DNA of 64,000 bases from Mesorhizobium onobrychidis (GTDB lineage: Bacteria > Pseudomonadota > Alphaproteobacteria > Rhizobiales > Rhizobiaceae). Position numbers and translations under genes: made by a program. Shown here piece after piece: positions 21,056 through 35,761 of this stretch. The notes below the pieces were generated by a model. That model saw only the letters and a list, made by a program, of their open reading frames with translations. It searched no databases and was not told the DNA's origin. Every line of letters begins with the position of its first letter. The stretch's first letter is position 1. Where the stretch lies: positions 2,027,501-2,091,500 of the forward strand of contig NZ_CP062229.1 of the NCBI RefSeq assembly GCF_024707545.1, in the 5' to 3' direction.

Positions 21056-21370
21056 CTAAGCGCTCATCTCCAGATCGAACACGATCAGCCCGTCGGTTCC
21101 GCCTTCAAGCGCCGCGACCAGCCGAGCGCCGGCTCGGCTGTGAGCCTCATGCACCAGATAGGCGTCGCGTGCGGCGGCATCGCGGAAGTCGATGGTGAAG
21201 CCGTGCGTGAAGCCGCGCGCGAACGGCTCCGGGCTGGTGTTGACGCTGAATTCGACCTTGCCCATGCCGTCGATCACCCGCCGCAGCGCCTCAAGATCGG
21301 CATGGATTGCCGCGCGCTCGGTAGCGTCGACGTCGCTGCGAAATCTGACAAAAACACAGTGTCTGACCAT
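21056..21370 (-). CDS. Dabb (stress-responsive alpha/beta barrel) domain protein
   Basis: A 104-residue protein with the dimeric ferredoxin-like Dabb pattern (MVRHCVFVRFR at the start, FTIDFRDAAARDAYLVHEAH in the middle). Relatives include small enzymes and ligand-binding proteins of polyketide and aromatic metabolism. It is the last gene of the long catabolic operon, 9 bases after the GMC oxidoreductase, so it may bind or isomerise an intermediate. Confidence 0.85.
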   Translation of the reverse strand: MVRHCVFVRFRSDVDATERAAIHADLEALRRVIDGMGKVEFSVNTSPEPFARGFTHGFTIDFRDAAARDAYLVHEAHSRAGARLVAALEGGTDGLIVFDLEMSA

Positions 21371-21379
21371 TTTGAGTCC

Positions 21380-23008
21380 CTATGCCGCGCGGTTGCCGGA
21401 AAACACGGCCGGCGGCAGTGGTTCGCGGCCAAGGATCAGATCGGCGCCCTTTTCGCCGACCATGATGGTTGGCGCATTGGTGTTGGAGGATGGGATGTGC
21501 GGCATCACCGAGGCGTCGCAGACGCGCAACCCTTCGATGCCGCGCAGCCTGAGATCGGGCGTCACCACGCTCATCGCGTCATGGCCCATGCGGCAGGTGC
21601 CAACGGGGTGATGGTCGGTCTTGGAACTGCGGCAGGCATAATCGAACAGCTCGTCGTCGCTGGTGAGTGTCGGTCCCGGCAGCACCTCGCGCAGCACATA
21701 AGGGGCAAGTGCCTTCTGCCGCATGATCTCGCGCGCCAGCCTGAGCCCCTTGATCGACATGTCGCGATCGTAGGGATCTATCCAGTAATTCGGATCGATC
21801 AGCGGGCTGTCGGCCGGGTCGGCGCTGTTCAGCCGCACCGTACCGCGCGAACGCGGGCGCAGGAAAGCCGAGTTCAGCGTCACGCCCGGATTTTTCAGTT
21901 TCTCGACGCCGGCCTCGATGCCGGAGCCGAGGCCGAGATGGAGCTGGATGTCGGGCGAGGCGGCGGTCGGGTCGGCGTACCAGAAGCCGCCGGTCTCGAA
22001 CAGGCTGGAGGCAACCGGTCCCTTCTTCAGCAGCAGATATTGCAGGCCGGCCCACACCGTCCGGTGCAGCTTGGCGTAGTTGTCGTAGGTGTGGTCGCCG
22101 GTGCATTCGGCAATGACGAACAGGTCGAGATGATCCTGCAGGTTGGAACCGACGCCGGGCAGGTCGTGGACCGGCATCACGCCGACCGACTTCAGATGAT
22201 CGGCCGGGCCGATGCCCGATTGCATCAGCAGCTTCGGCGAGCCGATGGCGCCGGACGAGACGATCACTTCGCGCTCGGCACGCAGGGTCGTCGGCTGGCC
22301 GCCCGGCCTGTCGACGATCTCGACACCGACGGCGCGGCCTTTCTCGACGACGATGCGCGTCACCAGCACGCCGGTCCTGACGGTCAGGTTCTTGCGCTCG
22401 CGGATCGGCCTGAGATAGGCGACCGAGGCGGAGGAGCGTCTCGCGTCCTTCTGCGTCAATTGGTAATAACCGACGCCTTCTTGGGCTATCCCGTTGAAGT
22501 CCGGATTGAAGGGAATGCCCATCTCCTGTCCGGCGCGGAAATAAGCCTCGCAGATCGGCAGCGGCGCAATCGGGTTCGACACGCCGAGCGGACCCTGGTC
22601 GCCGTGAAAATCGTTGGCGTAGCGCTGGTTGTTCTCGGCCCGCTTGAAATAGGGCAGCACGTCGCGATAGCCCCAGCCGGCAAGGCCCTCTACCTTCTCC
22701 CAGGCGTCGTAATCGCGGGCGTTGCCGCGTGTATAGATCTGGGCGTTGATGGAGGAGCCGCCGCCGATCACCTTGGCCTGTGTGTACCGGAAGACGCGGT
22801 CCTTCATGTGCTTTTGCGGCACGGTCGACCAGCCCCAGGCGGCGATGCCCTTGGTCATCTTGGCGAAACCGGCCGGCATGTGGATCAGCGGGTGCCAGTC
22901 CTTGCCGCCGGCCTCAAGCAGCAGCACCTGATGCGACGGATCTTCGCTCAGCCGGTTGGCCAGGACGCAGCCGGCCGGGCCGGCGCCGACGATGATGTAG
23001 TCGGTCAT
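21380..23008 (-). CDS. GMC-family FAD oxidoreductase (choline-dehydrogenase-like)
   Basis: A 542-residue flavoenzyme. The N-terminus has the FAD-binding Rossmann motif VGAGPAGCVLANRLSED. The GMC signatures KVIGGGSSINAQIYTRG near 80 and SSGAIGSPKLLMQSGIG near 253 follow. The catalytic pair is His in HHPVGTCRMG near 465 and Asn in SSNTNAPTIM near 510. It oxidises a primary or secondary alcohol and passes electrons to oxygen or a quinone. It shares an operon with a second, unrelated GMC enzyme and an SDR dehydrogenase, so the pathway has several alcohol-oxidation steps. Confidence 0.93.
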   Translation of the reverse strand: MTDYIIVGAGPAGCVLANRLSEDPSHQVLLLEAGGKDWHPLIHMPAGFAKMTKGIAAWGWSTVPQKHMKDRVFRYTQAKVIGGGSSINAQIYTRGNARDYDAWEKVEGLAGWGYRDVLPYFKRAENNQRYANDFHGDQGPLGVSNPIAPLPICEAYFRAGQEMGIPFNPDFNGIAQEGVGYYQLTQKDARRSSASVAYLRPIRERKNLTVRTGVLVTRIVVEKGRAVGVEIVDRPGGQPTTLRAEREVIVSSGAIGSPKLLMQSGIGPADHLKSVGVMPVHDLPGVGSNLQDHLDLFVIAECTGDHTYDNYAKLHRTVWAGLQYLLLKKGPVASSLFETGGFWYADPTAASPDIQLHLGLGSGIEAGVEKLKNPGVTLNSAFLRPRSRGTVRLNSADPADSPLIDPNYWIDPYDRDMSIKGLRLAREIMRQKALAPYVLREVLPGPTLTSDDELFDYACRSSKTDHHPVGTCRMGHDAMSVVTPDLRLRGIEGLRVCDASVMPHIPSSNTNAPTIMVGEKGADLILGREPLPPAVFSGNRAA

Positions 23009-33708: not shown

Positions 33709-34721
33709 CCTGCGCCCCCGAGTTTCGGATCGATCGCGGCTGATTTGCCGGACTTGGCTGATTGCAACGCCGCCTCGGCTGATGTCAGCGACCAGACGCC
33801 GTCCTCGCCGGTGGCTGACGGCTGGCCTTCGCCACGGATTGCCGCATGGAACTGGCGCAGGGACCTGACATAGAGATCTTCGCGGTCGAAGCTCAATTCC
33901 TCCTCGCCTTTTGCCGTGCGCAGCAGCACAGAGCCGATCGGCTTCTGCGTCATCACATCTTTCGCGATCAGGGAGCCTTCGCTGCCATGCACCTCGAAGC
34001 CGGTGCTGGCGAATTTGGTGGTGAAGCCCTCATGCGACTGGGCGATGATGCCCGATTTGAAGCGCCAGATGCACATGGCGCTGTCCTCCAGGCCGCCGGC
34101 GGCCATGCCTGCGGCCTGGGTGAACGCCGAAACCTCGAGCGGATCGTCGTCGAGCACGAAACGCAGCGTGTCGGCATCGTGCACGGTGATGTCGAGCACG
34201 ACGCCGCCGCCGGCTTCCGGCCTGGTGATGCGCCAGCCCTGCAGATTCTCAGGCAGATAGACGGAGTGAAAGACGCGCGCGGCGATCGGCTTGCCGATGC
34301 GGCCGCCGGCAATGGCTTCGCGCATCGCCCGGTGCGAGCCGGCATTGCGCAAATGATGGTTGGTGCCGAGCACGATGCCGGCCGCCTTGGCGGCGGCGAC
34401 CATCTTGCGCGCATCGGCGCTGGTCAGCGCGAGCGGCTTTTCGCACAACACATGTTTTCCCGCCCTGATGGCGGCTAGTGCCTGTTCGAGATGCAGTTCG
34501 TTGGTGGTCGAGATGTAGACGGCGTCGATGTCGGAGCCGAGCAATTCATCGAGCGTCGAGACGGCAAGCAGAATGCCGTTCTCCTTGGCATAGGAAGTGG
34601 CGCGCTCCGGGCTGGAACTCATCACCGCCGTGATCTCGCTGTTCGGTTGCGCGCGGATGGCGTTGATCATGAATTGCCTGGCGATCGTGCTTGCGCCGAT
34701 CAGTCCCCATTTGACGGTCAT
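33705..34721 (-). CDS. Gfo/Idh/MocA-family NAD(P)-dependent oxidoreductase
   Basis: A 338-residue protein. The N-terminal Rossmann domain starts [14 protein letters not shown], the family Lys lies in [11 protein letters not shown] near 97, and the C-terminal domain (residues about 125-330) forms the open beta sheet. Members oxidise or reduce sugars, inositols and sugar acids. ATGA overlaps join it to the repressor gene upstream and the CoA-transferase gene downstream. It supports a sugar- or polyol-like substrate for the operon. Confidence 0.93.
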
Positions 34722-35761
34722 GCCGCGTCTCCCATTCCAGCACGGCGATCAGGACCGCAACTGTCCCTGATGACAAGGTTGACGGCGCCGATATGATCCT
34801 CGGCGCGCGTGGTGCGCGACTGAATCATCTTCAGCATGACATGGGCGGCGCGCTCGCCCAGGCCTGCCGAATCCACCGCGACGCTGGTCAGCGCCGGCAT
34901 GTAATGCTGGGCTTCGATGACGTCGTCGAAGCCGACGACGGCGAAATCCGCGCCGGGCTCGAGGCCGCGCTTGCGCAGCGCCAGCATGACGCCGAAGGCG
35001 ACCGCATCGTTGAAGCAAAGCGCCGCGGTCGGCGGCTCGGCCATGGCGAGGGCCGTCTCCAGGCAGGCAATGCCGCCCTTGCGGCTGGTTTCGCCTTCGA
35101 CGACGAGTATATCGCGTTTGGCGATGCCGAGCCCCTCGCAGGCCTCGCGAAAACCGCCCAGCCGCTCGTGATAGACCACCAGGTCCGATGAGCCGCCGAA
35201 GAAGGCCAGCCGGCGATGCCCTTTGCCGATCAGATGGGCGGTGGCGAGCCAGGCGCCGCGATGATTGTCAGGCGCGATCACCGGGATGCGGCTTTCAGGA
35301 AGGCGGCGCATGGTGAAGACGATCGGAAGGCCCGCCGTCTCGATGCGGCGGAAAGCACCGGGCGTCGTGCCGCGCGCCGGCGACACGATCAGCCCGGCGA
35401 CACCTTGCTCCATCAGCGATTTCAGCACCTCTTCCTGGCGCACCGGGTTCTCCGCCGTGTTGGCGATGAACGGTACGATGCCTGCCGACTGGAAGACACG
35501 CTCCATGCCGACCGCCATTTCGGCGAAAAACGGGTTGGTGAGATCGTTAATGACCATGCCGATGACGTTGGAATGGGCCTTGCGCAGATTGGCGGCGCCG
35601 CGGTTGTAGACATAGCCGACATCCTCGATCGCCTTGCGAACCTTCAGCGCGGTCTCAGGCCGGATCAGATCGCTGCCCTGCAGCACGAGCGACACCGTCG
35701 ACTTGGACACGCCCGCCTCACGGGCAATGTCGAGTATCGTCGCCTTGGGCCTGCTGGCCAT
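34718..35761 (-). CDS. LacI-family transcriptional repressor
   Basis: A 347-residue regulator. Residues 1-55 carry the LacI helix-turn-helix and hinge ([20 protein letters not shown]), and residues about 60-340 form the periplasmic-binding-like effector domain. It is the first gene of the minus-strand operon, so it controls its own transcription. Matching palindromes overlap its own promoter (35797-35810) and the promoter of the divergent DUF993 gene (35957-35971). The effector is presumably the operon's substrate or an intermediate. Confidence 0.95.

Follow-up and report, generated by a model that had tools for sequence, protein, structure and literature searches.

What does an operon do that combines a sugar importer with two GMC oxidoreductases, a coenzyme A (CoA) transferase and an enoyl-CoA hydratase? 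The question is raised by a 64,000-nucleotide stretch of the Mesorhizobium onobrychidis genome (contig NZ_CP062229.1, positions 2,027,501 to 2,091,500; the whole stretch is called the window here), where a first-pass annotation had described 13 catabolic genes on the minus strand. We propose that these genes and a divergent DUF993 gene form a LacI-controlled divergon for the aerobic use of 1,5-anhydro sugars, namely 1,5-anhydro-D-fructose (AF), 1,5-anhydro-D-mannitol (AM) and possibly 1,5-anhydro-D-glucitol (AG), and we give this proposal about an even chance of being correct. These sugars resemble glucose but lack its anomeric hydroxyl, so that their ring does not open spontaneously. There is fairly good support for this substrate class. 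What the analysis shows are the genes, candidate operators, their conservation, the orthology of one enzyme to a known reductase and predicted folds; the CoA steps, all of them, and their sequence are what we infer.

The evidence that carries the proposal begins with the second gene of the operon, a member of the Gfo/Idh/MocA family. Its best solved relatives are two 1,5-anhydro-D-fructose reductases (AFRs), 2GLX from Sinorhizobium morelense (phmmer E 2.4e-141, matching residues 3-331) and 4KOA (E 2.7e-136), which we take to be the S. meliloti enzyme. By sequence comparison the gene is an orthologue of the characterised and solved Sinorhizobium AFR. Enzymes of this family work with the Lys of an EKP motif and an Asp/His pair, and the corresponding K94, D176 and H180 are invariant in 15 AFRs from such clusters (the row from locus L110 was left out). 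Because it is orthologous to a characterised AFR, the protein is most likely a ketone reductase rather than the additional alcohol oxidase of the first-pass annotation, and it would catalyse the NADPH-dependent reduction of AF to AM. The rest of the order given there (import, alcohol oxidation, aldehyde to acid, CoA transfer, crotonase) is plausible. AFRs in the same cluster of five Rhizobiaceae genomes (loci L223-L227) are 85-91% identical to 4KOA and 83-89% to 2GLX, and an S. meliloti Ak57 gene annotated as AFR also lies inside this cluster (L071). The nearest named relatives of the AFR gene in the window are from Mesorhizobium (97% identity). Inositol and levoglucosan dehydrogenase were considered as identities and rejected, the protein scoring far under their cut-offs.

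AFR does not travel alone. The search for the cluster in other genomes that had been suggested was run, and among the best 80 of 588 AFR loci found (63 labelled Mesorhizobium, so mostly one genus) LacI, the CoA-transferase and the crotonase, of enoyl-CoA hydratase (ECH) type, accompany AFR in all 80. The binding protein is found in 77 of these, aldehyde dehydrogenase (ALDH) in 75, and GMC2 and DUF993 in 74 each; the counts for the short-chain dehydrogenase (SDR, 7/80) and GMC1 (3/80) are low since these genes mostly lie past the fetched flank. In a sample of 247 Rhizobiaceae genomes, 65 have AFR, 81 the CoA-transferase and 64 both (Fisher p 5.6e-42, relatedness ignored), and the CoA-transferase lies less than 200 bases downstream at 60 of 68 AFR places. 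Four of the other eight places hold distant AFR-like genes (44-50% identity). Across the order sample, 42 of 297 genomes carry the CoA-transferase at 63% identity or more (one match is partial); matches with one internal stop were counted in both samples. Two loci, L237 (G069:C27) and L238 (G844:C12), each have two divergent AFR-like genes (42-50% identity) along with GMC1- and ALDH-like genes, and no CoA-transferase was detected in either; these are possibly a CoA-free variant.

The genes also have the appearance of one unit. All 13 are present, open and tightly packed, with the coordinates and families that had been claimed (Table 1), and are transcribed in the order LacI, Gfo/Idh, fused class I CoA-transferase, crotonase, ALDH, CUT1 binding protein, two permeases, MalK-type ATPase, GMC2, SDR, GMC1 and Dabb. 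Four open reading frame (ORF) starts from mechanical calling are probably too long, and Table 1 uses the preferred starts for the crotonase, ALDH, permease 1 and SDR. With these the intergenic gaps are -4, -4, -8, 25, 59, 177, -4, 4, 5, -4, 12 and 9 bases, i.e. overlaps of 4-8 bases and gaps of 4-59 bases, and the single 177-base spacer with a hairpin that had been pointed out, which separates the binding-protein gene from that for permease 1, is real. A GC-rich stem of at least 6 pairs occurs in 94 of 121 related spacers, with varying sequence (a count without a shuffle control). Hairpins occur behind highly expressed binding-protein genes, and this one resembles them rather than the mark of a separate unit. 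Promoter-like sites between 20900 and 36100 are not clearly above chance (4 found, against 2.1, sd 1.6, in shuffles).

The unit of 13 genes was incomplete, however. It is a divergon of 14 genes that includes the divergent DUF993 gene, and the other half of the control region had been missed. DUF993 belongs to the unit because the gap between it and lacI holds two LacI-type operators common to both. At least two operator copies are found in 94 of 95 related lacI/DUF993 gaps, many of which are near copies of one another, and none in any of 95 shuffled gaps. The LacI protein of the operon would be expected to bind both. A wider LacI regulon finds no clear sign in the one-mismatch matches elsewhere, which are few (4 forward and 5 reverse; the reversed pattern gives 3 and 2, respectively); one operator-like match, C1:5438957, lies at the 5′ end of an ORF. 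We rejected the epimerase gene at 37314-38258 as a further member: it was not detected beside DUF993 in locus L033, is found in 34 of the 80 AFR loci and may be a neighbour by descent. The first-pass view of a single catabolic operon for a sugar-like substrate is supported.

The importer fits a glucose-like ring. The binding protein shares 63% identity with a homologue that has glucose bound; it matches 4R2B, which is glucose-bound, and further glucose(/galactose)-binding proteins best, and it groups with glucose-binding structures. Homology thus supports a glucose-type CUT1 importer, with sugar binding predicted. Catalytic-type residues are conserved in the seven enzymes examined (Table 1), from alignments that excluded rows that were at least 90% identical, had less than 90% coverage, fell under the chosen identity thresholds or contained a stop. 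We take Glu327 of the CoA-transferase to be catalytic, and Glu114 and Glu134 of the crotonase to be its catalytic pair. The nearest solved relatives of GMC2 are FAD-dependent glucose and fructose dehydrogenases and, more weakly, pyranose oxidases. The SDR passes the NCBIfam cut-off for '3-ketoacyl-ACP reductase' (NF009386). Fatty-acid, choline and carnitine operons were rejected as identities: for a choline/betaine operon GMC1 falls just below the cut-off (601.2 bits vs 605) and ALDH well below (474.6 vs 668.6), and the CoA-transferase scores below the FadX cut-off (341 bits vs 750).

DUF993 would provide the carbon-carbon cleavage. A comparison of structures gives clear evidence for a TIM barrel with C-terminal helices of the dihydrodipicolinate synthase (DHDPS) type, and the modelled protein appears to be a divergent branch of this aldolase fold. 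K227, on strand 223-229, the sixth of the barrel, is invariant in 30 sequences; its position in the fold makes it a putative Schiff-base Lys, and hhalign aligns it, weakly (probability 0.89 on a 0-100 scale, E 0.06), with the Lys of DHDPS. The sequences themselves are far apart. Aligned rows are about 9-15% identical to the DHDPS/N-acetylneuraminate-lyase class I aldolase superfamily, the region of the TPYY motif is replaced, no DHDPS was matched in a profile search of PDB sequences, and a single-sequence search reached 3FLU at E 0.59. No conserved Tyr is found in the TPYY-equivalent stretch of the 30 sequences, and because this catalytic Tyr is missing we do not file DUF993 as DHDPS proper. 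At least 8,000 proteins score as members of the family.

How might these enzymes work together to open the ring with neither oxygen nor radicals? The glucose-type importer would bring in AF, AM and AG, as its homology suggests. AFR would reduce AF to AM, a reaction published for the Sinorhizobium orthologues, and GMC2 may feed in AG by oxidising it at C2. GMC1 and ALDH would convert the CH2OH at C6 to a uronic acid, and the CoA-transferase would make the C6 thioester, in which H-5 becomes acidic. The crotonase could now eliminate OH-4 and H-5 to give an enol ether, which is stereochemically possible because H-5 and OH-4 are cis in gluco and manno rings and crotonases eliminate syn. Hydration at C5, a step to which we assign no enzyme, would open the ring to an acid of the 2-keto-3-deoxyhexonate type. 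Oxidation by SDR and cleavage by DUF993 would then yield pyruvate and a three-carbon fragment on its way to glycerate, an ending that resembles the known 2,4-diketo route for L-rhamnose and L-fucose. The glycerate would be phosphorylated by a glycerate kinase, and a gene for such a kinase adjoins some related clusters. Alternatively, direct aldol cleavage would give glyceraldehyde, followed by ALDH. That the operon holds a new aerobic way to open the inert ether ring via a cyclic carboxylic acid, through oxidation at C6, a CoA thioester, C4-C5 elimination by the crotonase, ring opening and cleavage by DUF993 as a new branch of the DHDPS fold, is a tentative proposal, and we would sooner bet against it than for it.

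The gene order recurs outside the genus, and the variants among relatives bear on the proposal. We compared 87 loci, classed by chosen thresholds; where a locus ends at the 20 kb cut, absences are uncertain. There are 41 of type A (CoA-transferase with AFR), 7 of type B (CoA-transferase with an acyl-CoA dehydrogenase), 14 others with the CoA-transferase, 21 with DUF993 and not this CoA-transferase, and 4 (L069, L070, L237 and L238) in no class. In type A, ECH was detected in all 41 loci, the binding protein in 39, SDR and GMC2 in 36 each, ALDH in 35, GMC1 in 32, DUF993 in 22, Dabb in 6 and glycerate kinase in 3, many of these loci being shortened at 20 kb. In two genomes the transporter is missing beside the enzymes, and one of the 4R2B type is encoded elsewhere in the genome. 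Because these two retain LacI, AFR, CoA-transferase, ECH, GMC2, SDR, GMC1 and DUF993 (ALDH in one of the two), we regard this set as the core.

Type B loci, on plasmids of S. meliloti, Paracoccus, Sagittula and Rhizobium and in other genomes, share CoA-transferase, ECH and SDR (7 of 7 each), DUF993 (6), ALDH and GMC1 (5 each) and glycerate kinase (3). They differ from the operon in having other importers (CUT2-type ABC in L072, L073 and L128), the acyl-CoA dehydrogenase, electron transfer flavoprotein (ETF) genes in some, a Zn-alcohol dehydrogenase, aldo-keto reductases and an isomerase; AFR and GMC2 were not detected in the seven loci. Two GMC1-type GMC oxidoreductases here carry the public label 'alanine-phosphoribitol ligase' (L073:9413-11014, identified by NCBIfam, and L072:8557-10152, identified by tblastn with 52% identity to GMC1). 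Type C comprises 13 of the 21 loci that have DUF993 and not this CoA-transferase (L105-L109, L112-L115, L117, L126, L127 and L131), several of the remaining loci being incomplete. Alongside DUF993 it has a different Gfo/Idh family, whose L126 member is close to 3OQB, and a gene of the sugar isomerase/epimerase type; glycerate kinase is present in L126 and L127, and type C is a putative sugar pathway. At L125, on a Paraburkholderia caribensis plasmid, DUF993 adjoins an annotated CoA-transferase, a ThiF family adenylyltransferase and an isomerase. In a tree of DUF993, from which rows with an internal stop, less than 80% coverage or less than 50% identity were excluded, the root as drawn sets apart a group of all 22 type A rows and 4 others (support 93/75) from types B and C, and none of the types forms a strict clade. 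Glycerate kinase lies beside some clusters of all types, which points to glycerate as a product of the pathway.

Several observations count against the proposal. The core is not specific to them, because type B shares the enzymes and shows no AFR. Seventeen of the 81 genomes with the CoA-transferase have no AFR, GMC2 is found in 3 of the 14 further CoA-transferase loci in which no AFR was detected, and type C pairs DUF993 with another Gfo/Idh and no CoA-transferase of this operon's family. We know of no precedent for the proposed elimination by the crotonase with opening of the ring by hydration, and the place given to the SDR is a guess. The reaction of DUF993 is uncertain because the Tyr of the DHDPS motif is missing, MASR being aligned there (a weak alignment). 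Glycerate kinase is found in only 3 of the 41 type A loci, and the genome's one MOFRL-type kinase, the kinase family searched for, is about 1.76 Mb away. The importer, too, may simply import glucose. The S. meliloti binding-protein gene smc04396, which we take as the orthologue, is reported to be induced by dextrin (PMC4960864); we count this in favour of the proposal, but it may mean glucose or maltodextrin.

The first alternative is that the pathway is of the same type and has another glucose-like natural substrate, e.g. an osone, a 3-keto or C-linked glucoside, a deoxy-sugar or a cyclitol, the activity of AFR on AF being incidental. Homology marks the binding protein as a glucose binder, the core can be found without AFR too, alongside other transporters and an acyl-CoA dehydrogenase, and AFR reportedly reduces osones too, as Kuhn et al. 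are said to have found in 2006. On the other hand, AFR is fixed in the lacI-AFR-CoA-transferase-ECH block, both in the best 80 of the 588 loci and at most AFR places across the family, and Rhizobiaceae metabolise AF by a route that begins with AFR, according to a review (PMC12441222). We consider this alternative unlikely.

A second alternative takes its lead from β-oxidation. Here an acid would be activated to its CoA ester, crotonase and SDR would carry it on to a 3-ketoacyl-CoA, and either DUF993 or a thiolase encoded elsewhere would split this to glyceryl-CoA, from which the CoA-transferase would recycle CoA to the next acid, as has been proposed for Klebsiella michiganensis. The SDR scores above the 3-ketoacyl-ACP reductase cut-off, an acyl-CoA dehydrogenase is an extra member of type B clusters, joined in some cases by ETF genes, and glycerate kinase recurs near the clusters. 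There is also a precedent: in K. michiganensis, deoxyribonate catabolism through sugar acids as CoA esters was proposed from mutant fitness data, and the passages available (PMC6365646) describe a FabG-like SDR, a CoA-transferase related to propionate CoA-transferase and a glycerate kinase, the last being matched in the clusters of relatives of the operon. The Klebsiella route differs in its CoA synthetase, thiolase, lactonase and MFS transporters, and crotonase, GMC and DUF993 go unmentioned in those passages. It also qualifies the earlier remark that sugar pathways normally avoid CoA esters: for sugar acids handled as CoA esters a precedent exists, and it is the one that we found. Against this alternative, thiolase, which the Klebsiella route uses, is absent among the 14 genes, the modelled fold of DUF993 is that of a Lys-type aldolase, and type C uses DUF993 without a CoA-transferase of this family. 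We judge it improbable.

In the third alternative AF is used by the published route, and the CoA genes handle some other acid under the same control. The review cited above (PMC12441222) reports AF catabolism in Rhizobiaceae with AFR as the first step and AM then passing to mannose by C1 hydroxylation, not via CoA, which speaks against our own proposal. In S. morelense, of the same family and with an orthologous AFR, the published second step is an oxygenation at C1 to mannose, by a P450-like enzyme, where the operon instead has a CoA-transferase, a crotonase, two GMC enzymes, SDR, ALDH and DUF993. The genome has 9 P450 matches, none of which lies within the window, no oxygenase is found among the 14 genes, and the published oxygenase is unnamed in print. 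With AFR and the CoA-transferase nearly inseparable, this alternative is decidedly improbable. Least probable is a loose assembly of genes for unrelated jobs under one regulator: members do vary between relatives (the transporter is swapped or absent, and Dabb and ALDH are often not detected), but the overlapping genes, synteny across families and conserved operators speak against it.

Another known route concerns the same substrate class as our proposed aerobic pathway. A review describes anaerobic use of AG and AM by gut bacteria through a phosphotransferase system and glycyl-radical enzymes; like our proposal it has special chemistry for the ether ring, and unlike it relies on phosphorylation and radicals. 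A genome-wide search for the glycyl-radical enzyme family PF02901 gave no match here, and 3 of 14 control genomes do match. How new, then, is the operon, which had been called undescribed? AFR is characterised (2GLX, 4KOA), AF catabolism is in print, and importer and regulator are of known kinds. For the remaining route, i.e. the steps of CoA-transferase, crotonase, GMC, SDR and DUF993, we found no description in the open-access literature searched, a scope that leaves subscription papers mostly outside.

Table 1. Genes and control elements of the proposed divergon, with positions in the window
Feature	Position	Strand	Basis
Dabb-domain small protein, last gene, loosely kept member	21056-21370	-	6/41 AFR + CoA-transferase loci, many loci shortened
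GMC1, choline-dehydrogenase-like GMC oxidoreductase	21380-23008	-	His467 conserved
Short-chain dehydrogenase	23021-23782	-	above NCBIfam NF009386 cut-off; Ser144, Tyr157, Lys161 conserved
GMC2, sugar-type GMC oxidoreductase	23779-25293	-	His438 and Asn481 conserved
MalK/UgpC-type ATPase	25299-26414	-	
CUT1 permease 2	26419-27357	-	
CUT1 permease 1	27354-28310	-	
177-base spacer with hairpin (stem 28357-28374)	28311-28487	-	
CUT1 solute-binding protein, glucose-binding subfamily	28488-29741	-	
Aldehyde dehydrogenase	29801-31312	-	family profiles; Asn168, Glu266, Cys300 conserved
Crotonase (enoyl-CoA hydratase type)	31338-32114	-	family profiles; both Glu (114, 134) present
Fused class I CoA-transferase (YdiF/FadX type)	32107-33708	-	family profiles; Glu327 conserved
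1,5-anhydro-D-fructose reductase orthologue (Gfo/Idh/MocA)	33705-34721	-	phmmer to 2GLX, 4KOA; 64% identity to 4KOA
LacI-family regulator, first gene of the operon	34718-35761	-	Pfam LacI and Peripla_BP_3; relative in 80/80 AFR loci
LacI-type operator 1, ATTGGAACGTTCTAAT, upstream of lacI	35796-35811	.	palindrome, conserved in relatives
LacI-type operator 2, ATTGGAACGTTCCATT, upstream of DUF993	35957-35972	.	palindrome, conserved in relatives
DUF993 (PF06187), proposed C-C cleaving enzyme	36000-37154	+	DHDPS/N-acetylneuraminate-lyase fold, Lys227 on sixth barrel strand

Some further features lie around the divergon in this 7.5 Mb genome of two contigs. The window starts with the end of an rRNA operon (23S, 5S) and a tRNA-Met (1-2946), and a tRNA-Val lies at 38596-38670. 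The small RNA mmgR (RF00519) has a match on the minus strand at 40329-40406; it has been reported to have a role in polyhydroxybutyrate accumulation in S. meliloti. The proteins SMc04390-92, of the presumed homologous cluster, are reported at reduced levels in an S. meliloti phbC phaR mutant relative to phbC (PMC12542648).

The operon is a concrete and widespread gene set that could fill in the AF route, for which no second enzyme has been identified in print, and DUF993 could gain a first function. AG ranks among the major polyols in the human body, and a toxic phosphate derived from it underlies the neutropenia seen in two inherited diseases. The oxidative catabolism of AG has not been described, according to a 2025 review, and the route proposed here, if true, would supply it. 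CoA-ester chemistry would then extend to intact sugar rings.

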